From a virus: DNA of 64,000 nucleotides. The stretch is taken from positions 28,596 to 92,595 of the IMG/VR virus record IMGVR_UViG_3300027822_000001. One strand, 5' to 3'. This document shows, one piece after another, positions 1-48,760 of this stretch. The translations under genes were made by a program, and so were the position numbers. The notes beneath the pieces are model-generated. The model was not told the origin of the DNA. It was given only the letters and a program-made list of their open reading frames with translations, and searched no databases. Positions within the stretch are counted from its first letter, which is position 1; each line of letters starts with the position of its first letter.

Positions 1-3000
1 ATACAAGTTAGTTTTTTAATTAGAACAACTGATTTTCTTGAAAAGTATGGAGATTGGACAGTTGATAAGAATGACTTCGTTGGTAAGTTGAATGAACAGA
101 AAGAACCAACATTAGATGCAGTAAATAAGATATTTAGAAATGAGAGTGCTAGCAAAGAAATGGAAGAGCCTACTAAACATGATGTGCTTAGAAAGAAACT
201 AGAATCTGATTCTAATTATAAATTGGGTGAGGCTTCTGTAGAAGAAGTAAGTGATATGTTAGAGTCTGGTGTTGCTCTTGCTACAAATCTTGTTATTAGA
301 GATAATGTTAAAAAGAGTACTATATTCAATGCCTTATTAAATACTTTTAGTATTCAAAGAAATAAAGCATCTAAGTTTATAGATTACCAAGAGTCCTTAG
401 CTGAGCATAATAAACTTCCAAAGTCTGAGCTAGATAAAATAAAGAGAGGAAAAGAGTTATTAGATACTATATTAGATAATGAAGAATATAAAACTAATTA
501 TCTAACCTTAATAGATTCTGAATTAGATAGTATGGGATTTAATACTATCAATAAAGAAGCCACTACAGACATAAATGATAAAAATGCTGAAAATCCTATA
601 CTTAAAGAAATGTGGGATGAGCAATCTAAGTTTGAAGTTCCTATTAAGAACACTTTGCAATTTAATATAAGGATGCTATTAGGCTCTATTCCTATTCCTG
701 AGTTAGATAATGGAAATTTAACGGGTAATTATAAAACCAACTCTATAGGACTAGCACATACATATACTTCAAATAATATAACTTTAAAATTATTAGACTA
801 CTTTAATCATAGGGTTGTAGATAGAAATTCATTTATGAGTGATTTGAAGTCCTCTGGAATACCTGAGTTTGTTGAGCTTGCAAGTAAAGTAGATAAACTA
901 TCATATAATAAAGATAGATTACTTAATGCTTTAACTGCTACTGTTGGTAGACTAAAAAACAATAAAGTTGTTGCTATATCTGAAGGAAATAATTTTATTG
1001 TTTATAATACTAATAACAGGTCTGATAGAAAATATATAACAGATACATGGTATGGAAATCAAAATATTCTATTTAAAGAATCCGATATTGTAGAGCTTAA
1101 TAAAAACAATGAATTAGTTTACTCTGAAACAGGCAAAAAAAGATTACAGCATGAGTATAATAATATACATCAAATATTAAATTCATCAAATACTAGACAT
1201 ATAGCTGCATCTCATTTTGTAGGTAAACTTAGTAGTTTAGTACACTCTGATAAGTTTGGAGAAGCTAAATCAGAAGAAAAGACTAAGATGCTTAATGATA
1301 TGATAAGTATGAAAGAAGGCAAGACTATAAAAAGTAATAGTTTATTGATGCCTGTGGAAGATGTATATTCATTATTACCTACCATACTAAAGAAAGGAAA
1401 AGACGGAAGAATTTCTTTTAAAACTTCTGACTATGATGAGCTGTCTAAAAAACTCTTAGACTTAGATATAAAAGAAGATACCGAAAATGTAGACGATGCA
1501 ATTAACATAAATAAAATAAATGTTGTATCTCCTTTAATACGACATTATTTAGCTCTTACTGGAATGGATTTTGAACTTGATACTATTAAGAAGTTCTTAC
1601 AAAATCCAGGAAGATACATGACTGATTTAACAGATGGAGTAACAGAACCAACTGTTAAACTTTCTGACTTAACTACTCCAAGAAAAGTAGCGAATGGTGT
1701 AAATGTTTTACATTTATTAATACAGGATATAAATAAAGGGGGCTCTGGACAAAAAGATGAAAATGCTAACAGTCTTAGAAATAACAACCCATTAAATACT
1801 AATGCTTCTAAAAAGGTATTTACTAAGTTGAAAGAAATTGAAGAGGTTGCTGATTTATCTTCTACTTTTATCAATTCTTTCGGTAAACAAGAGTCTTCTT
1901 ATGGCTTTAATACATTCTTATCAAAAGAGATTAACAACTTAAAAGGAAATACATTAGATGGAATGAATACAGACCCCCTATCAAGAAGAAGTCTCTGGTA
2001 TAAAGCCTTTAAAGGAGACGATTCTGTTGCTGGTTTGATTGAAAGACCTGAAAGATTATCTCTTTTGTTTGGTGATGGAGTTAAAGAAGCAAAGACTGGA
2101 AAAATAATTAACAGAGCTTCAGCATCACCTCTTGATAAAGAAGTTATGAGAATAAACTTATTTGCTTATAATAATGCTGGTTTTACTGATAGACTATCTG
2201 TTATAGATGCTTTAGTGTTTTCTGATAAATCTAGAACTAGAAAGATATTAGCTCCAAGAATTAGTTTAAAAGGAGAAGATTATAACTTTAATCTTGACTT
2301 TAAAAATAAGGAGAGTTTAAAAGACTATTCTATAAGTGATGTTCAATATGGAGATGACGTAAAACATGTACTTACTGATATGGCGTTAACTGAAATAGAC
2401 AGAATTAATGATACTGTATTAAGACACAAAGAAGCAAAAGATGTAATGACTTCTGAAAGAAGTATAGGTGGCTCTAAATTTTTAATATTTCCCTCATTAG
2501 ATAATAAAGTTATAAATTCTTTTAAAAGGTCTGATGGAAGTTTTGATACCTCTAATAAGGAGTTTATATCAAAGGTTCAAAAACATATGAATTTACTTTT
2601 AACAGCAAATGCTAATGAGAACTTAAAAGAATGGAAAGATGTTGATTTGATAAGAGCTTCTGGTGGTATTAAATATTTAGATAGTAGGCATAAAAAACAT
2701 GTTGGAGAGAAGATATCTGTAAAGGATAGTAATGATAGAAACATATTTAATTATGATAAAAGAACAAAAGATTCTTATGTAACAGCTGATACCGCTTTAG
2801 AATTAGCTCTTAATGAAATGGTAACTAATCTCAATATGATTCAGTTAGTTGGAGATGTTGCTGACTACTATAAAGCAGGAAATACTCCTGAAGAAACATC
2901 AGACAACACTTTCTCAAACTACTATAAAAGACTTGGAAGTGTAGGGGGTGCTAAAATGAATATAGCACAAGAATTTAGAGCAAAGTTTGGTAAAGTTACT

Positions 3001-6000
3001 AAGAATGTTAAACATAATAGAATAAATTATGTATATGCTAAAGATATTAAAACTAATAAATATGCTAAAGAATATTTAAATGCTCTTAATGTCTCTGGTT
3101 GGGAAAATGTAAATATGTCTGATGCTGCAGAATATACAACACTTAGAGACCACATAGTAACATTACATGGAGAAGGAAGACTTAATGATAATGTCTTTAA
3201 TAAGATACATTCCAAAATAATAGAAAGTTATAGAAATGACACTCTTGTTAAATTAACTGAAGATGAGGCTATTGCTATAATACCACAAAAACCTTTATAT
3301 GCGGGTACTAATAATGTTGATGGACTTAGAGTTGCTACTATTGTTAAGTCAAGTGCATTTCCTTTATTAGAAAGTATAACTGGAGGAACTCCTTTTGATG
3401 CTGTTAGAAAAGCAATGGAAGCTAAAGAGAAAGAAGAAATATTTGATAGAGACAATAAGTTAGCTTTTGATGATTCTAATGAAATTTTAGAGTTATCTAC
3501 TACTAGACTTGCTTTTGAATCTGGAGTAAAAGTAGGTAATGCTAAACTAAATGATATTTTTAATGAGGATTTTACAATTAAAGATGGAGCTTTAAAAGAC
3601 ATAAAATATACTAACGTAGACAGAGAACATTTAGGCATTCAACAAGAAGAAAGTGAGAATGATAGTAGAAAGATAAATATTGTAAGTCAAATGAATAAAC
3701 TCGTTACTTCTGAAATATTAGATACAAAAGGCTTTAAACTTCCTGATAAAGAAAAAGAAATGAGTGGTATTGAGTTAAGAGACTTAAAAGAGAAACTTAA
3801 AAAAGCTATAATGGATAAGAAAGCCATTAAGTTATTTAAAGATGTAGGATATGATGAAGCTACTAATTCATTTACAGATGAAAAGAAATTCATGAAGTAT
3901 CTTGAATCTAAATTATCTGCTAATGAGATATCAGCAGAAGATGTAAAGATGCTTATTGATAAGGATGGAAATCAAGTAGCTCCTCTATATCTTAATAAAT
4001 CTTATGGAAAGATAATGAGTTCTTTATTAGCATCTATTAGTAAAGATGTGATAAAACCTAAAATAAGTGGTAAAGGAGCAGTTCAATTAAGTAGTGTCGG
4101 ATTGCTATTTAATGGAGATATGAATAACTCTAACATCATATTTACTAGAAGAACTGATGCAGATGGCAACATAATTAAACTTGATAGATTAGAACATACT
4201 AAATATAAAAATGGAGAACTTAAAAGAGCTCAACTTTTAGTATCTAGAGAGTTCTTTGAAAAGTTTGGAATAGATTTAGATAATGCTACTGAAATCATTG
4301 ATGGTAGGAAAGTTATGAAAGAGGGAGTAATTGATGATAGACTATTAAAAGCAATATCAGCTCGTATTCCTAATCAAAAACACTCTAGTATGTTGCAAGC
4401 TGAAATAGTAGGCTTTCTACCAAAAGATGTTAAAGAAACAGTAATTGTATCAGATGGAATAACAAAACAGATGGGTTCTGACTTTGATATTGACCATTTA
4501 TATAACTATTTATATAACTATAAAGTACAGAAAATTACTCATAAAGAAGATTTAACAAAAGATTTAACTAAGTTTAACAAACTTGTGGAAAGAGCTAAAG
4601 AAGGATATGCTCCTAGAAAAAGTAATCTTCATAAAGTTTTAAAAAGTATGGATAGAGAAGACTATAATGAGGAACTAATAAAAATAGGAATAGCTAAACA
4701 TTTAGATAAATTTTATGATACTAAATCTAAACAACTTTACGATATAGTTAGAGATTTTAAGCTAAGTAAAATAACTATGGTTGATGCTAATAGAGATAAA
4801 ATTAATAAAATAACAGACTTATCTACAGAAGCATTAGAAAATAGATATATAGATATTCATCACTCTATACTGGAACATAAAGAAGTATTACCTAAAATGT
4901 TAGAAGTACTTGATTTACCTGATGCTAAATTAATTACTAAAGATATAGATAGCTCAGTTCCTAAAATAGAAAATACAATGTTCTCTCCTTTATCTGGAGT
5001 ATATAATAAAAGACAATATGAGAGTAATCAAGGAGGTAAAGATGGTATATCTATACAAAGTTCTTTGAGTATGCTTCATATTGCTTTAGAAAAAGATAAC
5101 TTTGAGTTACAGTTTAAAAAGTTTAGTGAAACTAAGAGAGAAAATGAAAATGTATTTAAATTTATAGTAGATGGTAAAGAAGTAGTATTTAAAGCTATAG
5201 GTAGAGGAAGTTATAATTTTAAAGGAAACAAGAGAACAAATCTTACTACTAATACTATACTACAAAATGAAGCTGTTGATAATGCTAAAAATAAATTACT
5301 ATTTAGATTAGGCTATTCAGCAGTAACTTCTCCAGCTTATAATTTATTAAACTTTCTTGCAAAAGATGGAAAGTCTATGCCTTTAAGTATGATAGCTAAG
5401 ATGTTTAGACAGAAAGGAGTATTAGAAGCTTATAGATATGCTGAGAATAAGACATCTATGTTTAATGATTCTTCTAAATCTTTCTCTGAGTATATGAAAG
5501 AATATGCATTAAATAAGTATGATGGAGATAAAAACTTTTCAATATCAGAGGAAATTTTAGATAAGGGGTTAAAAGGTAAAAATACTAGTGATTCTAGTTT
5601 AAATAATTCTGATTATGAAAGCTTGCAATCTACTCTTATTGATAAGTTATCTAAAGCTCAGGAATTTGGTTCTAATCTACTTAGAATATATTCATCAGCT
5701 AATTTAGAAACTAAAGGAATAGGAAGTTCTACTGGAGAGCTATTATTAAAAGAATACAACATAAATAAATTTGTAGTAAATAACTCTAGATTTAGAGGAA
5801 CTTATAGATTACTTGGAGATGCTATAAATATGGATAATGGAGTAAGAAATGTTGGTGGCAATCTTACAGAGCTTGGTAGAATTTATGATTATGGAATAAG
5901 AAAAGCTCTTAATTTTTATGAGTTAAGAGATATTAAGAATAATCCTAGAACAATGTTGGGAAGCTCTAGATATAAAAATACAATCAGACAGTTTATACGT

Positions 6001-28478: not shown

Positions 28479-29047
28479 CGTTTCAATATTGTTATTTCTT
28501 CGGTAGTAGTTTCTCCACTACATTTATTAATTGTATTAACATGAGTTTCTTTATGTCCAAAAGGAAAGAAAGTTCTATTTCCTTTATTTCCAACCCTTTT
28601 CCACCAGTAAACACTAGCAGAACGGTAATCTACCATTAGTGTATCAAATGTTATGCTATCAGCAAGTACTAATCCACTTACATGTACACAACTATCTGGC
28701 TTATAATTAAATCTTCTGATAGAATCTCCTGCCATTACTATAGTTGTGTCATAATCATATTTATAATGATTATTTATAACTCTAGTAACATTTTTTACTT
28801 TTATATTATTTGCTTTAATTACCTCTTTGAGTAAGCTATCATTCTTTAAAACATACTGTCTAAATTCATCTTTAGATACTGTATAACTTTTATCATTAGT
28901 ACTTTTTATAAGCTCAGTTATTGTATGCTCCATCTCCTTATTACTACTAAGTAATGTTGCAAATTTAGATAAAAACCCTACTATCATAAGTATTACAGCA
29001 ATTATAACTAATATAGTTACTAAATACTTTTCTATTTTATTAAACAT
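28475..29047 (-). CDS. Inner-membrane anchored protein, spanin-like layout
   Basis: 190 residues. One N-terminal membrane segment (about residues 9-30, LVTILVIIAVILMIVGFLS) followed by a soluble part with a helical region and then strands (HYKYDYDTTIVMAGDS). An N-in, C-out topology is likely. This is the layout of inner-membrane spanins and of other Bacteroidota phage envelope proteins. It lies within a few genes of the M15 lysin. Function not proven. Confidence 0.6.
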   Translation of the reverse strand: MFNKIEKYLVTILVIIAVILMIVGFLSKFATLLSSNKEMEHTITELIKSTNDKSYTVSKDEFRQYVLKNDSLLKEVIKANNIKVKNVTRVINNHYKYDYDTTIVMAGDSIRRFNYKPDSCVHVSGLVLADSITFDTLMVDYRSASVYWWKRVGNKGNRTFFPFGHKETHVNTINKCSGETTTEEITILKR

Positions 29048-42295: not shown

Positions 42296-42328
42296 TGTTT
42301 ACTTTATTTTGATTAATATTTTTATATT

Positions 42329-42779
42329 AAACTCCGTATCAATAGGAGTTTCCGCACAATTAGTCTATATAGTGGTTTGTCATAATAAATTATGAACTAC
42401 CATATAAACTATACGATACAAGTTTTATATTACTTGTAAAGGCTAAATAAATGAAATCATATCTCCGCTTTTAAAGGTTATATTACTAATCACCTGTTAT
42501 ATGTTAACCGGTTCAGGAGCTGTGCATTGTTTCTGTGCCACAAAATGGTAGCTATCTCCATTTGCTTCAGATGTAACCTTCCTCTAATGCAACATTAGAC
42601 TTATGCATGTTTTGATTTATTAGCTGCCTACAATTACAGATAGAGGACTGGTCTTAACCACATTTCAATACTTGTAATTGTAGTATCATTACCTTAATTA
42701 AAGGTATGAGTATAAATGTATTTTATAAAATGCCCGTCTTTCCGAGCTGTCACCTTACAAAGCATATCCACCAATGGAT
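42329..42779 (-). ncRNA. Candidate large structured RNA A
   Basis: About 500 bases without a plausible gene but dense in exact inverted repeats: AAACTCC/GGAGTTT (42329/42345), ACAAGT/ACTTGT (42418/42432), TCTAATG/CATTAGA with a 3-base loop (42583/42593), CTACAATTACA/TGTAATTGTAG, 11 bases enclosing 34 (42628/42673), TACCTT/AAGGTA (42690/42701) and TATCCA/TGGATA (42765/42775). An imperfect long hairpin spans about 42366-42405. This density resembles the ornate phage RNAs GOLLD and ROOL, but no family is assigned. Strand is assumed from the flanking minus genes. Confidence 0.5.
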
Positions 42780-42838
42780 ACCTAACTACCTGTTTTGGCT
42801 ATTATGAAGCTATCGACACTTCAATACTATAAGGATTT

Positions 42839-42896
42839 GAGGAATCGAACCTCTCTTATTTTCATAATTAAATTTTTCATAGATTTTTTAATTATG
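42839..42896 (-). other. tRNA T-arm-like sequence next to a 10-base hairpin
   Basis: On the minus strand GAGG-TTCGATT-CCTC (42839-42853) is the standard tRNA T arm. It follows a hairpin CATAATTAAA/TTTAATTATG (42863-42896) with a 14-base loop. The downstream AATCCTT could be an acceptor strand, but no good 5' partner or D arm is seen. Probably a tRNA remnant. Confidence 0.35.
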
Positions 42897-43030
42897 TTTT
42901 TAATATGTTTATTCTTAAATTTTTCATACGTCGGATGTTGTTTAGGCTTATATCCGAAACATTTTATTCGTTTTATTTTTTTAAATAGTTTATGTTGTAC
43001 ATAATAGTAGTCACTAAATGCTAAACCTTC

Positions 43031-43111
43031 CTAAACAGACCATTTTGCATCTGTATGGTCAAGTACTTTCCACATTATGAGTGAATCTTTATGTTCATAT
43101 CTTGGTTTCAT
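43031..43111 (-). CDS. Very small reading frame, 26 aa, ending in TAG
   Basis: MKPRYEHKDSLIMWKVLDHT followed by DAKWSV and TAG. The same frame stays open for 67 more codons beyond the TAG, beginning EGLAFSDYYYVQHKLF, down to 42830. The first residues after TAG look protein-like, the later ones Lys-rich and overlapping the T-arm motif. It may be a shortened gene. Spacing of 8 bases from the upstream gene supports expression. Confidence 0.4.
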   Translation of the reverse strand: MKPRYEHKDSLIMWKVLDHTDAKWSV

Positions 43112-43119
43112 AAATAGTT

Positions 43120-43527
43120 TTATACTTTAATTAATTCTAATGCTTCATATAATCCTTTTTCAAGAGCTTCTTCATATTTATTAAATTCAGGTTCATTATG
43201 AGATAAAGTAAAGTATTCTCCTATATGTAATATTCTATAATAGAATATTTTATAAGGAGTAGCAGATGATATAGAAATGTCAATATGAATATTATGTTTT
43301 TCTCTTAACCATTTTTGAAGTAATGATTGTGTTGGTATTGTGCATGAAAATGGTATTCTTTTATAAAAAGGGTGGCTATCAATATGCCTGTTAGACATAG
43401 AAGAATCCATTCTATATCCGGCATATTGATTCGCTTGTTCTCCATCATTCCACATTGCGCATTCCCAATCAAAACCTTTCTCTTTAGCTAATTTAGCTGT
43501 TTTGAATGTTATTAGTTGTTCTTTCAT
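43120..43527 (-). CDS. Phage accessory protein, paralog of the gene at 32 kb
   Basis: 135 residues; shares the start, the PTQSLLQKWLREKHN core and the YEEALEKGLYEALEL end with 32050-32460. This copy has an insert rich in Asp, Ser and Arg after residue 30. Function unknown. Confidence 0.7.
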   Translation of the reverse strand: MKEQLITFKTAKLAKEKGFDWECAMWNDGEQANQYAGYRMDSSMSNRHIDSHPFYKRIPFSCTIPTQSLLQKWLREKHNIHIDISISSATPYKIFYYRILHIGEYFTLSHNEPEFNKYEEALEKGLYEALELIKV

Positions 43528-43539
43528 TATATTAAAAGT

Positions 43540-43725
43540 TTATAATTGATAATCATGTTTTGAGGCAATTGTTCTTAGTTCTTCTGCTTTTTCTTGAAAA
43601 TCATCATCAGAATACGCATGAGATTTATTATATTGTTCTCTCTGTAAATTTTCAAATTTCATACCTTCAATTTCAGCTTGTATTGCTAAAACTCCTGCTA
43701 ATCTTTTTACATCATATTCATTCAT
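43540..43725 (-). CDS. Small hypothetical protein, 61 aa
   Basis: Not recognised. MNEYDVKRLAGVLAIQAEIE and an acidic helical rest. Twelve bases before the start of the next gene. Confidence 0.55.
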   Translation of the reverse strand: MNEYDVKRLAGVLAIQAEIEGMKFENLQREQYNKSHAYSDDDFQEKAEELRTIASKHDYQL

Positions 43726-43742
43726 AATATTAAAATTTTAAT

Positions 43743-44021
43743 TTAATTAGCTTCAATTAAATCTTCAGGTCTAATTCTAAAAACATCATAGTTACCTAAA
43801 AATGGCATATCTTCGTTTGTTTTTCTACAAGTAATCGTAACAGTTCCATCCTCTTCTTCTTCATATGAAATAGGACTATATCTGTTATTTATATCATCTT
43901 CAATTTGTCCCATTCTATAACTTTTCCATGGTACTATCTCTTGAGCTACTCTTCTAACATTTTCTGGTCTTTCTGCTAACCAATCTTCCCATCCTTGTTT
44001 TTGCTCTGTTGTTAATCTCAT
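43743..44021 (-). CDS. Hypothetical acidic protein, 92 aa
   Basis: Not recognised. Begins MRLTTEQKQGWEDWLAERPE, helical, then an acidic strand pair (EEEEDGTVTITCRKT). Follows the interrupted small frame at 44.1 kb. Confidence 0.6.
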   Translation of the reverse strand: MRLTTEQKQGWEDWLAERPENVRRVAQEIVPWKSYRMGQIEDDINNRYSPISYEEEEDGTVTITCRKTNEDMPFLGNYDVFRIRPEDLIEAN

Positions 44022-44052
44022 TTTATTTAATTTAACATCTTTTATTTGAATA

Positions 44053-44181
44053 TTAATAATTATTGTAATCTAATCTCATTATGTCGTCTAACATTTCAGA
44101 TAGATTGTTTTTTAGTTTCTCCGCTTATGTATATTTTTGTGATTTGTATAAATGCATCATTCTATCAACTTCAAAAATCAT
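44053..44181 (-). pseudogene. Small reading frame interrupted by TAA
   Basis: ATG at 44181 gives 18 codons (MIFEVDRMMHLYKSQKYT), TAA at 44125-44127, then 23 codons in the same frame (AEKLKNNLSEMLDDIMRL...) to a second TAA. Upstream of the ATG the frame is open over a hydrophobic stretch (LKLINILITISLLTNLN) that could be a membrane segment beginning at a TTG. The charged helix on both sides of the stop suggests one former protein broken by a nonsense change. Confidence 0.4.
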
Positions 44182-44366
44182 AATATTTAAATTAGTTAGT
44201 AATGATATAGTTATTAAAATATTAATCAATTTAAGCAAGAAGATATGTTCTCAAAATATCCTTTACTTATTTTTATACTGTTAAGTTATTTTACCATTAT
44301 TAATAATTGTTTTTGAGAAGCAACTTTCATAATGTTAGGTAAAATACACGCAACTACCTTAACTCT

Positions 44367-44888
44367 GACCCTTATTCGACATCTCATCGAATTAGCAGAT
44401 TGATTAATATATATGCATATAAACATATTTGTTTATTAGCACCCTCTTGTCTTCCAACACATAGTGAGTAAGATAAGTAGGGTCACGCAATTAAATTAAT
44501 TGCTTGCTGAGAACTCATTTGTGTTGTAATAGATTCATGTACTATTCTTTTTGACACTTCTTTCTCAAGGAAGCAACACATCCAACATTACTGCTGGCAT
44601 CTTTATGTAAAATATAATTAAAGCTGTAACATATTTCATTTACAATTTAAATGCGAAGGATAACCTGTAGTCACTTTCCTTACATACTTTAATAGACCTA
44701 CAGACCTAATCTGTTTCTTTTTACAAAGGTATTCAATGTTTAACCTTATATTTATGTAATTATCTTATTTCTTTAAAATAGTAGCAACGAACTACAACTG
44801 ACCGCAGTTCGCTCTACTATTAGTTATTTCCATCCTCAACAACTCTTCTGAGTTTAAAACACCAAGATGGTTTTGCCTACTTAAAGGC
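44367..44888 (-). ncRNA. Candidate large structured RNA B
   Basis: About 600 bases with no gene. Exact inverted repeats: GACCCT/AGGGTC (44367/44479, long range), GCAATTA-AAT-TAATTGC (44487-44503), CTGTAG/CTACAG (44665/44698), AATAGTAG/CTACTATT (44777/44814) enclosing CGAACT/AGTTCG (44788/44806), CCATC/GATGG (44830/44866) enclosing AACTC-TTCT-GAGTT, and GCCT/AGGC (44875/44885). TGTGTTG at 44520 can pair with CAACACA at either 44455 or 44574, so two folds compete. Strand is assumed from flanking genes; family unknown. Confidence 0.55.
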
Positions 44889-44902
44889 GGCTGATAAAAT
44901 AC

Positions 44903-45094
44903 TTATAAGTTTGATTTTTTATCTTCTAAGTATTTTACTATTTCTTCTGCTTTCATTAAAGCATATGTTCTCTGTTGTGTAAATGTTCCTGCAGTTTGAG
45001 GTAATGGTAATTCTATTATTGAATCATCTGTTTCAAAATCATCCTCTTTTCTTTGGATTGCATCAGCAATCTTGTATACTAGTTTTATATTCAT
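44903..45094 (-). CDS. Small hypothetical protein, 63 aa
   Basis: Not recognised. MNIKLVYKIADAIQRKEDDFE and a helical end (ALMKAEEIVKYLEDKK). Overlaps the upstream gene by 32 bases and directly precedes structured RNA B. Confidence 0.55.
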   Translation of the reverse strand: MNIKLVYKIADAIQRKEDDFETDDSIIELPLPQTAGTFTQQRTYALMKAEEIVKYLEDKKSNL

Positions 45095-45233
45095 GTGCTA
45101 TTACATTAAACTCCAATGAGCTTATAGTGTACATAAAACAGAACTTCTTTATTGCTCTGCTTTCTGATGTTGCATAAACAACATCTGATATTTCTGTACC
45201 AAATACTTTCGCTTTAACTTCGTATATTTTCAT
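45063..45233 (-). CDS. Small hypothetical protein, 56 aa
   Basis: Start chosen at the internal ATG at 45233 (MKIYEVKAKVFGTEISDVVY), because a longer start at 45266 would run into the hairpin block. The pattern YEVKAKV...ATSESRAIKKF is like small beta-beta-alpha proteins found in Bacteroidota phages. Function unknown. Confidence 0.55.
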   Translation of the reverse strand: MKIYEVKAKVFGTEISDVVYATSESRAIKKFCFMYTISSLEFNVIAHEYKTSIQDC

Positions 45234-45254
45234 GACTGTATAGTTTAAATTAAT

Positions 45255-45466
45255 AAAAACTCTCACTCTATTTGTTTATTTATGAACTTCTTCAAATACT
45301 GATGAGTGGGAGTAGGAATTACCACTAAACTATTAGAATAGCTTAGATGATAATATTGTTAAAAACCCTCACTTAAGAATAGATTGATAAATCATCTACT
45401 ACCAGGGAAAGTGAGGGTATATATTATTACTTGAAAGGTCACTACTCTTTCACCAGTGTAATAATA
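45255..45466 (-). repeat. Three tandem hairpins between genes
   Basis: Stem 1 ACTCTCACTC/GAGTGGGAGT (45259/45304), stem 2 ACCCTCACTT/AAGTGAGGGT (45365/45409), stem 3 TATTATTAC/GTAATAATA (45422/45458). Stems 1 and 2 share a sequence (AC-CTCACT core) and each is followed on the minus strand by four or five T, as in tandem terminators or repeated RNA units with 35-51-base loops. Stem 3 starts directly after the TAG of the upstream 62-residue gene. Confidence 0.65.
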
Positions 45467-45655
45467 CTATTTTTCTTGCATACTTTGTTCTAGTTTTGTA
45501 ATCCAATCTATGTTACCTTCGTACCATCTTTGAAAGGTCATATCTATATCTTTAGGTAATACTGCCAAAGCGTTTCCATTATAAAAAGCTCTATAAAGAG
45601 CATTTTTTAATTTGTTTTTTGCTCCTCTCACTTTTATTTCTTTTGTTGTGCTCAT
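45467..45655 (-). CDS. Small basic hypothetical protein, 62 aa
   Basis: Not recognised. MSTTKEIKVRGAKNKLKNAL then an aromatic middle (FQRWYEGNIDW). Ends in TAG directly at the foot of a hairpin. Confidence 0.55.
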   Translation of the reverse strand: MSTTKEIKVRGAKNKLKNALYRAFYNGNALAVLPKDIDMTFQRWYEGNIDWITKLEQSMQEK

Positions 45656-45704
45656 TTCTTTAATATTTAGTTAGTATTGCTTCGATTAGTTAAATCATTT
45701 CCTC

Positions 45705-46241
45705 CTAGCTTTTAATAGGTAAAACTAATCCTTCTGGTTTTACATAATACTTGAATACTTTATCAAGCTGTTTTACATCTTTTAAAATATAATAATAACA
45801 CTCATCATTTCCTTCAGTATAATGTAATTCTCTTTTTTCAGCTTCTTTCTTTTCTATGCCTATACGAATAACATCTATGTAAAATCGTTTGGGCTTAAGT
45901 GGTAATTTTATAATTTGTGAACTATTAATTAATTGAAAACCTTTATTGTCAATATATACACTTCCAGCAAAAGCATCCCATTCTTTTTCTCCCTGCCAAG
46001 TAATAGCATCTAAGAAGTATGGTTTTCCATCTTCATCCTCTTTAAACACAGAACTTAATCTATTATTTTGAAAACATTGTTCTCCAATGTGCATTTCTGA
46101 GACATCATTCCATTCTTCATCAATTCCTGTTATATCACAGAGTGGTTCTTGTAAGCAAAGCTTTTTAACTGCTTCTGAGATTGCTCTTGCTGTGTATGGA
46201 GCAGAGCCACCACTTTGTCCACTTTCATTAAATTTAGTCAC
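45705..46241 (-). CDS. Conserved phage protein with a disturbed N-terminus
   Basis: Contains GESGQSG-type block KFNESGQSGGSAPYTARAIS, LEPL-type LCLQEPLCDITGIDEEWNDVS and QNNRLSSVFKEDEDG, a widely spread phage family of unknown function. The start given is a GTG at 46241, but the frame stays open for 27 more codons (AVREFEILNKTVKEAIIAPF...) up to 46322, with no ATG in frame. An ATG at 46326 is one base out of frame. The true start is therefore probably that ATG, separated by a one-base shift. Confidence 0.65.
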   Translation of the reverse strand: MTKFNESGQSGGSAPYTARAISEAVKKLCLQEPLCDITGIDEEWNDVSEMHIGEQCFQNNRLSSVFKEDEDGKPYFLDAITWQGEKEWDAFAGSVYIDNKGFQLINSSQIIKLPLKPKRFYIDVIRIGIEKKEAEKRELHYTEGNDECYYYILKDVKQLDKVFKYYVKPEGLVLPIKS

Positions 46242-46461
46242 TAATGCAAGTATTTCTTTTTCAAAGGGAGCTATTATTGCTTCTTTAACTGTTTTGTTAA
46301 GTATTTCAAACTCTCTTACTGCTCATTTATTTAAATATTTCATTGTTTTATATTTGTATTATTATTAGAATATATTTTTAGTTTGTTGTTTTTATTACTT
46401 TCATTACTTTATTTATATCTCTTTTATACGTTTATTCCTAATATGTTATAAAAATGTAGAT

Positions 46462-46492
46462 ACAAACTTTAAGATTTACTGTAAGAGTTTGT
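46462..46492 (-). terminator. Weak hairpin terminator candidate
   Basis: ACAAACT/AGTTTGT, 7 bases, 17-base loop; on the minus strand it is followed by ATCTACATTTTTAT. Lies in a 330-base noncoding stretch between 46.33 and 46.66 kb. Confidence 0.4.
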
Positions 46493-46525
46493 GTTGGAGT
46501 ATCAACTATCTCTTAGGAGAGGATT

Positions 46526-46621
46526 GGTTGGTGTGGTGGGGTTGGGTGATGATGATTCATTAGAGGTGGAGCTCTGCCACTCCACCACCCACAATCCCAA
46601 CAACTATTTTTTCAACCCCAC
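46526..46621. other. G-rich island with nested inverted repeats
   Basis: In an otherwise AT-rich region, GGTTGGTGTGGTGGGG (46526-46541) can form a two-layer G-quadruplex. GTGGGGTTG (46536) pairs exactly with CAACCCCAC (46613), enclosing GGTGGAG/CTCCACC (46565/46580). The stem and the quadruplex use the same G tract, so they exclude each other. May be a regulatory or replication structure. Confidence 0.5.
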
Positions 46622-46657
46622 TTCCTACTATTCCTTCTTTTCTTTTCTCTCTACTAC

Positions 46658-46756
46658 TTAGCTTGTACTTATATTAGTTAAAGCTAGAGTAATAGCAAAT
46701 AATCTTTTTATAACTCCACCACCAACCTCAATCACATTCATTCTTTCAATCCTCAT
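46658..46756 (-). CDS. Tiny reading frame, 32 aa
   Basis: ATG at 46756 preceded by GAGGGG (Shine-Dalgarno-like, 1-2 bases away). MRIERMNVIEVGGGVIKRLF then a hydrophobic helix. It follows two small membrane-protein genes in the same direction. May be a small membrane peptide; low certainty. Confidence 0.35.
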   Translation of the reverse strand: MRIERMNVIEVGGGVIKRLFAITLALTNISTS

Positions 46757-46767
46757 CCCCTCAACAA

Positions 46768-46938
46768 CTATGTTCCTTGTATTGAGTTTGAGTTGTTGTC
46801 ATCATCGTAATAAAAAGACCAGACTATAAGAGCTGCTCCAACAATAATATCAATAGTTGCCATAGCTATTGAATACTTATATGTAAAGGCTGCCACTATG
46901 AACTCAGCAACCCCCCAAACTAATAGAACTTTCCGCAT
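46768..46938 (-). CDS. Small two-span membrane protein, 56 aa
   Basis: MRKVLLVWGVAEFIVAAFTY, a short basic loop, then a second segment (TIDIIVGAALIVWSFYY) and an Asp/Asn/Ser tail. Its ATG is 2 bases from the TAG of the upstream gene, whose last codons AAGGAGGAT supply a Shine-Dalgarno. Ends in TAG. Could be a holin/antiholin or a membrane toxin-type peptide; no family recognised. Confidence 0.6.
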   Translation of the reverse strand: MRKVLLVWGVAEFIVAAFTYKYSIAMATIDIIVGAALIVWSFYYDDDNNSNSIQGT

Positions 46939-46940
46939 AG

Positions 46941-47093
46941 CTAATCCTCCTTATTTATAATAACTGGAACAAGAACTCCCGTTGCTATTAGCATTGCTAC
47001 TCCTAAATAGAAGTAGTGCCCATTAAAACATACTATAGCAGCAATTAAGAAAAAGATTGCTACCAATAACACTGCAATTTGTGTACTATTCAT
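46941..47093 (-). CDS. Small two-span membrane protein, 50 aa
   Basis: MNSTQIAVLLVAIFFLIAAI, an aromatic turn CFNGHYFYLG, then VAMLIATGVLVPVII and KED. Two membrane helices are clear. Forms a pair with the 56-residue gene. Ends in TAG. Confidence 0.6.
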   Translation of the reverse strand: MNSTQIAVLLVAIFFLIAAIVCFNGHYFYLGVAMLIATGVLVPVIINKED

Positions 47094-47285
47094 AATTTAT
47101 TTATTTAAGAAAGCCAAGCTATCCAACCCCTTTTGATTATCGGGTAGGACTTTGTACTTAAGTTGCCTCACAAGCTATTGTGTGGATACTTGACTTTGTG
47201 GTTACTGTTTATAAAACTGCTATTGTTGAAGAGCAGCAGCTATTACTCTACATAAAAAATATACATGACATGCTGGTATAAAATA

Positions 47286-47307
47286 GAACCCTAAATTAAT
47301 AGGGTTC
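47286..47307 (-). terminator. Hairpin after the first early gene
   Basis: GAACCCTA/TAGGGTTC, 8 bases with a 6-base loop; followed on the minus strand by TATTTTAT. Eight bases after the 140-residue gene. The stretch from 47094 to 47285 holds only short hairpins (CACAA-GCTA-TTGTG, CTGCT/AGCAG) and no gene. Confidence 0.6.
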
Positions 47308-47315
47308 CAATAAGA

Positions 47316-47738
47316 TTAAGCAAGAGCTTTTTCAGCTTCAAGCTCGACCATTTTCATTAAGATAGCATCATTGATTTTGTCAAACTGTTCCGTTGAAATC
47401 GGTTTACGATTCTCAAACATTTCAATACGATGTGATGAACCTTTATGAGGAACTTTGTTATTATCTGCATCAAGATAATAAGTCTTTCCCTCAATTAATT
47501 CATGAACATCAAATGAGAAACAATTGCCAATATCTTCGCCTAACGCATCAGCTTGGTCAGATGAAAGAGTTACTTCTTCCATTTCAAGCTTGCCGATAGG
47601 TGCAATCTGTGCAACAAACTCTTTGTTGAAGTCGTCGTAATTACTGCGAGCAACTTCAAGAGCCTTTTCAGACATAGGAACGATAGTTACTAATTTGCCT
47701 TTAACTGTGCTGATTACTTTTGGTTCTTGTAATTCCAT
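47316..47738 (-). CDS. First early protein, 140 aa, codon-usage outlier
   Basis: Not recognised. Begins MELQEPKVISTVKGKLVTIV; acidic, ends EAEKALA. It uses CGT/CGC for Arg and GC-ending codons, unlike neighbours that use AGA and AT-ending ones, and is followed by its own hairpin. This fits high early expression or recent arrival. It is nearly the first gene of the minus operon, the place for host-takeover proteins. Function unknown. Confidence 0.7.
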   Translation of the reverse strand: MELQEPKVISTVKGKLVTIVPMSEKALEVARSNYDDFNKEFVAQIAPIGKLEMEEVTLSSDQADALGEDIGNCFSFDVHELIEGKTYYLDADNNKVPHKGSSHRIEMFENRKPISTEQFDKINDAILMKMVELEAEKALA

Positions 47739-47763
47739 GATATCATATATTTTACAATATTGC

Positions 47764-47871
47764 CTACTCTTTTTCCGATTTTCGGCATATTCGGTCGAAT
47801 CTGTCCATACCCCCGTATGGTTTCACATCCACAATATAGACACGGTCTATCAAGAGGTGGTTCTCGTTCAT
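47764..47871 (-). CDS. Tiny leader reading frame, 35 aa
   Basis: ATG at 47871 after an A-rich leader. MNENHLLIDRVYIVDVKPYG then GMDRFDRICRKSEKE and TAG. Uses the same less biased codons as the next gene. It contains two exact hairpins (ATAGAC-ACG-GTCTAT, CCATAC-CCCC-GTATGG), so it could instead be a structured leader. Would be the promoter-proximal gene of the minus operon. Confidence 0.45.
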   Translation of the reverse strand: MNENHLLIDRVYIVDVKPYGGMDRFDRICRKSEKE

Positions 47872-47970
47872 AACGATTTTTTTAAAATTTTTTAAAATAG
47901 TTTAAGACTCCACCCTACTCCCAACAAAACCTAACTAAAATACAACGCCTACTTACATTTTCAGGCTCTA

Positions 47971-48315
47971 GGAAAGATAAGATAAGAAACTCACGCCCGA
48001 AAACCATATCGGACTTAGTGAAGTATTTCTTCCATTCTCCCAACTCTTGATTTTTCTTATACTACTTGACTAGGTGGCTTCTTCCAAAGACCAGTGAATT
48101 GCCGACGACATAAGTAAAATATCTTATCCTTCCTACCGCATGAATGTGCTATTCCGATAAGTTAATAACTTATTCGGCTGTTTTCTGACTATAGAGTCTA
48201 GTCTCACTTGAGTGCTTTTTTACGTTAAGAAAACGTTATAGAGTAGGATTAACTGCAAAATTGCGTACCATCTAATTTTACCTACTGGCTGTATTATAGG
48301 TAATAATTTGATGGT
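47971..48315. ncRNA. Candidate structured RNA C in the divergent control region
   Basis: The 690-base gap between divergent operons has no good gene. GGAA-A-GATAAGATA (47971-47984) pairs with TATCTTATC-C-TTCC (48120-48133) over 140 bases, 13 pairs with one mismatch. Further in: CCGATAAGTT-AAT-AACTTATTCGG (48154-48177), and ACCATC...TACC with GGTA...GATGGT (48267-48282 / 48299-48315). On the plus strand a run of six T follows at 48330. Could be an RNA, or a replication origin with cruciforms. Confidence 0.5.
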
Positions 48316-48465
48316 TGATTAACTGTACTTTTTTAAACCTTTCTGATTTAGAAATAAAAAAATTCTTAGTCTATACTTATATGTACTCATTCTCAACTAT
48401 TTTTCCAAAACTCATTTTTTAAATCCAAAAAAAAATCCTAACTTAGCAGAAGTAATTTTTTTATT

Positions 48466-48494
48466 TTTGTTACGGTTTAGAATGTTTATATTTA
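48466..48494 (+). promoter_or_regulatory. Possible Bacteroidota-type promoter of the late operon
   Basis: TTTG at 48466-48469 and TATATTTA at 48487-48494, seven of eight matches to the -7 box TAnnTTTG, with a 17-base spacer (slightly short). It would start RNA near 48500, 60 bases before the first plus-strand gene. Pattern match only. Confidence 0.25.
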
Positions 48495-48562
48495 TAGAAA
48501 CAAACCCTGACGGTAATGTATTAATAGGAAACATAAATATAAATGATTAAAACGATTTTTTT

Positions 48563-48760
48563 ATGAAAGGAGAAATTTTAATAAAGAATGAGAGTAGTGG
48601 AGAAGAAGTAATAACAGAGTTTCTTTTTAAGAAAGATGACGTCAGAAGTTGTTATAGAACAAAACATGGTATAGCAATTTACCTATTCGGGCAAGGTGAA
48701 TATACATTAGAACAGGATGCAGAATTATACGAACAACTTAAAGTGGCATTAAATGGCTGA
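48563..48760 (+). CDS. Small hypothetical protein, 65 aa, first plus-strand gene
   Basis: Not recognised. MKGEILIKNESSGEEVITEF, strand-rich. Overlaps the next gene by 8 bases. Its leader ends in AACGATTTTTTT, which also occurs at 47872-47883 on the same strand. Confidence 0.6.
   Translation: MKGEILIKNESSGEEVITEFLFKKDDVRSCYRTKHGIAIYLFGQGEYTLEQDAELYEQLKVALNG

Follow-up and report, generated by a model that had tools for sequence, protein, structure and literature searches.

The minus strand of a crAss-like phage genome encodes, with a probability of about 0.97 as judged from sequence comparison, a member of a conserved, non-coding and pseudoknotted family of phage RNAs. The window, i.e. the whole stretch of 64,000 nucleotides that was analysed, corresponds to positions 28596–92595 of the 92.6-kb virus record IMGVR_UViG_3300027822_000001. 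The RNA core is 311 nt long in this window (5' end at 44746, 3' end at 44436) and was delimited from its homology with Cellulophaga phage phi14:2, two exact family anchors and the covariance model R1. According to covariance model searches, the family is absent from Rfam 15 and is not a member of GOLLD or ROOL. No earlier description of this RNA was found in the open-access literature; subscription journals or preprints may hold one.

The source phage encodes a terminase of the crAss-like type (PHROG 6681, E = 1e-102), which is 43–49% identical to those of the nearest IMG/VR contigs and whose GenBank matches are crAss-like phages. GC skew, AT skew and the neighbouring genes favour minus-strand transcription in the region, and a model search found one copy of the RNA in this phage.

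Architecture of the conserved core

The core includes helices H1–H8, a GNRA-type hairpin, a pseudoknot and four hypervariable arms (v1 to v4); its length in relatives ranges from 236 to 508 nt, with a median of 334 nt. All the elements described below lie on the minus strand. The 5' hairpin H1 (44727–44746), AGGU-UAAACAUUGAAU-ACCU, has a conserved loop and arms that covary in relatives (e.g. AGUCG/CGACU, UGGGU/ACCCA). According to a by-eye reading, helix H2 (44602–44727) pairs UUUGUAAAA (44727–44719) with UUUUACAUAAA (44612–44602) and encloses arm v1; changes in H2 such as UUUGUGAAA/UUUCACAUAAA in L072 were likewise read by eye and carry no score. It is followed by the hairpin H3 (44582–44597), CCAGCA-GUAA-UGUUGG, which bears the GNRA-type tetraloop. 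Helix H4 (44520–44580) pairs UGUGUUG (44580–44574) with CAACACA (44526–44520), and includes both the hairpin H5 (44557–44573), CUUC-CUUGAGAAA-GAAG, and arm v2 (44528–44546), a small AAUAG/CUAUU hairpin that is hypervariable in relatives. The pseudoknot (44508–44567) would form between UGAGAA in the loop of H5 and UUCUCA (44513–44508). Towards the 3' end, H7 (44488–44502, CAAUUA/UAAUUG) displays two-sided changes in relatives and carries an arm v3 that has shrunk to a short loop, and H8 (44436–44484) pairs GACCCU with AGGGU(GCUAA) and encloses arm v4; the base of H8 is almost invariant and its upper part covaries.

The 5' half of the family consensus reads AGGYUAAACAUUGA(AU)ACCUUUGUAAA, arm v1, UUUACAUAAAGAUA, the hairpin CUAUCA-GUAA-UGGUAG, UGUGUUG, the hairpin UUCC-CUUGAGAAA-GGAA and arm v2; it continues with CAACACAAAUGAGUUCUCAGCAAG, UAGUUA, arm v3, UAACUA, CGUGACCCUACUCUUAU, arm v4 and AUAAGAAAGAGGGUGCUAA.

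The initial annotation had placed a large structured RNA with competing pairings at 44367–44888. This interval contains the core, together with about 140 bases upstream and 70 downstream that are not conserved, since the conserved RNA is limited to 44746–44436 on the minus strand. The words quoted in support are all present where they were placed (AATAGTAG at 44777 and CTACTATT at 44814, CGAACT at 44788 and AGTTCG at 44806, GACCCT at 44367 and AGGGTC at 44479, TGTGTTG at 44520 and CAACACA at 44455 and 44574), and the interval is devoid of any ORF of at least 60 aa. However, the number of helices, which had been taken as a sign of structure, is at chance level: exact helices numbered 48 (6 bp or longer), 16 (7 bp or longer) and 4 (8 bp or longer), and dinucleotide-shuffled sequences gave about 41, 12 and 3. 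Relatives do not retain most of the quoted helices. Indeed, the conserved partner of GACCCU is AGGGU at 44441 (H8) and not AGGGUC at 44367, and the nested AATAGTAG/CGAACT helices correspond to a strong, terminator-like hairpin (44777–44821, minus strand; a 12-pair stem followed by a T-rich tail) that lies upstream of the core and outside the conserved family. Among the quoted pairings, TGTGTTG (44520)/CAACACA (44574) corresponds to H4, which is conserved, whereas the alternative copy at 44455 lies within a hypervariable arm; relatives pair the 44574 partner, and the competing pairings on which the idea of a switch relied are not conserved.

Thermodynamic folding of single sequences is less telling. 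The core does not fold better than its shuffles (z = -0.39 on the minus strand), a comparison that is uninformative. On the minus strand, the 881-base gap in which it lies has a modest folding advantage over shuffles (z = -2.5), which is less clear on the plus strand (z = -1.8); the best minus-strand 120-nt windows (z about -3.6 to -4.2) mainly cover the region of the 44777–44821 hairpin and sequence located upstream of this hairpin.

Covariation in relatives

The covariance analysis that the initial annotation had proposed as a check argues for the RNA as a whole, and for one of the quoted helices. In alignment A3 (40 sequences), 91.5% of the cells pair and 28 of the 41 pairs display two-sided changes; none of 500 shuffles reached any of these measures, and pairing fell to only 38–47% when the partners were shifted by 1–3 columns. 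Alignment A4 gathers 35 distinct sequences from loci that were not selected on the central word, the exceptions being the window and the first of the L132 copies. Two-sided changes affect 26 of its 41 pairs, again more than in any of 500 shuffles and far above the shifted controls; as regards the modelled helices, this count is biased in favour of the structure because A4 was fitted to the model. H4 is 98.8% paired in A4 and all seven of its pairs change on both sides (e.g. ACGUGAG/CUCACGU, AUGUGAG/CUUACAU, CAUGCAG/CUGCAUG); two-sided changes also affect 6 of the 6 pairs of H3 and 4 of the 4 pairs of H5. The pseudoknot, which was left out of the model to which A4 was fitted, is 97.7% paired, with changes only of the U-A to U-G type; being almost invariant, it is compatible with the data rather than proven and is weakly tested by them.

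The window carries both exact anchors, helices H1, H3, H4, H5, H7 and H8 and the pseudoknot, which together define the R1 family. Its R1 score (155.8 bits over 44436–44602) is not independent evidence, as the window belongs to the 40 rows on which the model was trained; independent support comes from the phi14:2 match and from the exact anchors.

Distribution among phages

When the minus strand was compared by blastn with 50,697 phage records, a single match was significant, in Cellulophaga phage phi14:2 (Crassvirales, Steigviridae), at 2901–3214 (E about 2e-5 to 4e-5), with shared blocks that include the 24-base word CAACACAAATGAGTTCTCAGCAAG. In phi14:2 (NC_021806.1), the RNA, predicted at about 2.91–3.36 kb on the plus strand, lies in a non-coding stretch of 1.7 kb, from which RefSeq removed spurious gene calls, and is followed by a tmRNA. 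The exact 24-base word was found in 77 viral contigs. As a scan with this word fixes the word itself, other parts of the RNA were also used: an independent 23-base word from the 5' part was found in 38 contigs (18 of them new) and an independent gapped 3' pattern in 46 contigs (25 new, of which 23 harbour the full RNA). The window carries both the 24-base and the 23-base words exactly. From these three independent DNA anchors, the carriers amount to phi14:2 and about 120 IMG/VR phage contigs, several of them near-duplicates, and by our own count 117 loci, some of them identical, match the covariance model at full or near-full length, with model E-values that are rough. As relatives were found by exact words, diverged members would be missed and the range of sequences is conservative. 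Carrier contigs usually harbour one copy, and tandem pairs are found in L132/L087/L097 and in L163.

A crAss-type terminase match was found in 17 of the 30 carrier contigs tested (16 of them strong), and carriers devoid of such a match include several contigs of 170–373 kb. The carriers are crAss-like phages and non-crAss jumbo phages. A host-chromosome origin was rejected: among 395 Bacteroidota genomes, the RNA was found in a single one, a Sphingobacteriales MAG, on a 20-kb contig that is also the lone contig of the bacterial collection with the 24-base word. The Cellulophaga phages phi4:1 and phi17:2 retain the H8 part alone (29.8 bits). The RNA was not found in the examined loci of the closest terminase relatives of the source phage (L002–L006), nor in the whole L005 contig, and the flanking proteins used as bait gave either no matches or two contigs, both without the RNA. 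On the left of a strand switch, these relatives harbour several kilobases of ORF-poor sequence (L003 1–5300, L005 2639–6975), which in L003 contains a tRNA-Met and tRNA-like fragments.

Exchange of the hypervariable arms

Comparison of the arms parsed in 52 distinct family members indicates that the four hypervariable hairpin arms change hands independently between phages. An arm at least 90% alike was found in 24 pairs of loci, 21 of which share exactly one such arm and have at least two other arms below 70%. Recombination between the conserved flanks explains simply such exchanges at the same position, and the exchanges could be neutral rather than selected for specificity. Some cassettes are found at different positions: one occupies the v1 position in L122 and serves as arm v3 in both L124 and L153, and another, the v4 cassette ACAAGCCCCGTAACTGATAACTCGGTAGGCT, recurs unchanged across 33 bases within a second RNA-like element carried by L102, L112 and L151. 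Arm v3 and its stem are absent in L142, L150, L162, L164, L169 and others.

This second recurrent element, ACCAAUGCUCGCUGUUA...AAAAAGGGUU...AACCC[arm]GAAAGACACAGGUUGGU, occurs in the same phage clusters (L136, L150, L151, L102, L112, L084, L089, L090, L137, L144, L153, L164 and L179), has interchangeable arms and has one cassette in common with the RNA described here; it matches no family of Rfam 15. A third recurrent stretch, GAUUCGAGGCUCA(G/A)UCAUUUGA..UUGAGCACGCUACCUCGGAC..., lies just 5' of tRNA/tmRNA genes in L151, L124 and L130.

Genomic surroundings

ARAGORN detected a tRNA or tmRNA gene within 1.5 kb of the RNA in 25 of 79 loci, on the strand of the RNA in all 25. A tmRNA was seen near the RNA in eight loci and is downstream every time. 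Above the Rfam cut-off, 12 of the 28 contigs tested harbour a tmRNA, which follows the RNA at a short distance in some (G004, G007) and is remote in others; in several jumbo contigs, tens of kilobases separate the two. Neither tRNA nor tmRNA was detected in the 92.6-kb record of the source phage; therefore, the tRNA/tmRNA cluster context is not universal. Among ORFs of at least 120 aa near the RNA loci, 312 are on the same strand versus 42 on the opposite one. There is no constant protein neighbour, the most widely shared one being present in at most 13 of 74 loci, and a conserved protein partner was rejected on these grounds. Genes encoding SPFH/Band 7-like membrane proteins, annotated in phi4:1 (L057) and recognized by eye in the others, lie within a few kilobases of the RNA in L070, L130, L132 and phi4:1.

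Several other features were observed on the minus strand of the window. About 1 kb from the RNA, 45705–46241 encodes a predicted Tad3-like Thoeris inhibitor (Pfam PF25185, E = 2.8e-18). More unusually stable hairpins are found in 45250–45470, such as CCCTCACTT/AAGTGAGGG near 45366–45417, and the folding of 45320–45439 reaches z = -4.8. Another gap without genes, at 42296–43119, includes a T-loop-like GAGGTTCGATTCCTC and a word, GCTCGGAAAGACGGGC, that recurs in L151; it is possibly the other candidate RNA of the initial annotation.

Comparison with known RNAs

No Rfam 15 family matches the RNA at gathering score in the window or in about two dozen carrier loci, and a relaxed search (E up to 5) of 42300–48600 and of L106 gave no match to the GOLLD, ROOL and OLE models, in agreement with the proposal of an unlisted RNA class. 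GOLLD and ROOL are phage RNAs found near tRNA islands; both are pseudoknotted, have variable linkers and assemble into multimers (PMC12286853). Like ROOL, which is found in phages and prophages (PMC12286853), the RNA described here is a phage RNA with a complex, pseudoknotted structure, a variable part and, in many relatives, tRNA-island proximity, but it is shorter, and where ROOL has one linker it has several hairpin arms that are interchangeable. GOLLD, a phage or prophage RNA often located beside tRNAs, also associates a conserved and a variable part (PMC12286853); however, many GOLLD RNAs exceed 800 nt, whereas the present RNA alternates conserved blocks with variable arms. The tRNA-island location typical of both, found in many relatives, is absent in the source record.

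In crAss-like carriers, the RNA gene that comes next downstream, on the same strand, is often tmRNA (RF00023), from which the RNA described here differs by its sequence and structure and by the lack of both a tRNA-like domain and a tag frame. Neither ARAGORN nor Rfam detected tmRNA features in the core. A tag-like frame starting from a core ATG (MSSQQVV...) was rejected: frames are near random, stops are variable and none is conserved. A group I intron was rejected, as there is no Rfam match and the RNA is located between genes, as was a riboswitch, given that no downstream gene is common to the carriers and that the competing pairings fall within variable arms or beyond the limits of the core. 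The DUF805b RNA (RF02914), detected in the same window (47761–47795, minus strand, 44 bits, upstream of gene 47316–47738) and in L130, is a 35-nt cis element unrelated in sequence to the RNA; upstream elements that look similar to it were seen by eye in L003 and L005.

Putative function and alternative explanations

Because it has no frame, no conserved downstream gene and clusters on the same strand with tRNA and tmRNA genes, the RNA likely acts in trans after processing from a longer transcript. The gene would be cut out of a phage transcript that is often the one bearing tRNAs and tmRNA; the invariant core would serve as a scaffold and bind a conserved target in the Bacteroidota host, and the exchangeable arms would provide a changing specificity against a changing partner. 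Such an RNA may help the phage to take over its host or to counter host defences around the translation machinery, for instance through the sequestration of ribosomes, of nucleases that act on tRNAs or of further host factors that bind RNA. Taken as a whole, this mechanism is tentative, with odds somewhat against it, and its target is a guess.

Some of the same features would also suit a structural RNA of the GOLLD/ROOL type, i.e. a self-assembling container or scaffold whose arms would be disordered or peripheral linkers. These multimeric, pseudoknotted phage RNAs are found near tRNA islands and have variable linkers (PMC12286853), the present core is also constant with variable inserts, and a GNRA-type hairpin suits tertiary contacts; the much smaller core (median 334 nt), the lack of any Rfam match and the swapping of arms as units nevertheless make this possibility rather unlikely. 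The invariance of the core and the combination of a pseudoknot with a GNRA-type loop also recall ribozymes, and the RNA is often directly 3' of a tRNA and 5' of a tmRNA on the same strand, so that it might help the maturation of this transcript; this is improbable, as the source record harbours the RNA without any tRNA or tmRNA and no Rfam family matches. Even less probable is a cis-acting riboswitch or leader controlling the minus-strand gene located downstream in the window (43743–44021), which the competing pairings of the initial annotation might have suggested: about 400 nt separate the RNA from 44021, the competing pairings are not conserved, and what follows the RNA is often a tRNA or tmRNA instead of an ORF, with no downstream gene common to carriers.

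Another explanation, compatible with any of the above, concerns the arms alone, which might be selfish mobile elements, i.e. hairpins able to enter permissive loops of phage RNAs, for which they would have no function. The cassettes found in both v1 and v3, or in both v4 and the second RNA element, would fit with such mobility, as would the homing-endonuclease-like ORFs (HNH-like; GIY-YIG-like, by eye) located inside or beside the RNA in L151 and L103, the RNA being interrupted in L151. Most exchanges, however, occur at the same arm position, as expected from recombination at conserved flanks, and selfish hairpins appear improbable. Beyond the trans-acting scaffold favoured here, it is conceivable, although doubtful, that the genomes of large Bacteroidota phages contain several unlisted RNA genes that combine constant scaffolds with hairpin cassettes drawn from a common pool; the arms would decide the specificity for host factors and the cassettes would move between phages, arm positions and RNA families, like the modular swapping of tail fibres.

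Implications for phage biology

The family adds a widespread structured class to the few unexplained phage RNAs found near tRNA islands, such as GOLLD and ROOL. The Cellulophaga baltica phage phi14:2 is a cultured carrier and is therefore tractable for expression, structure and deletion studies. Hairpin arms that are exchanged on a constant scaffold would represent an uncommon way for RNAs to evolve and would give a clue to the role of such phage RNAs. Furthermore, a functional role of the cassette exchange would strengthen the argument for something categorically new, relative to RNAs of the GOLLD and ROOL kind.
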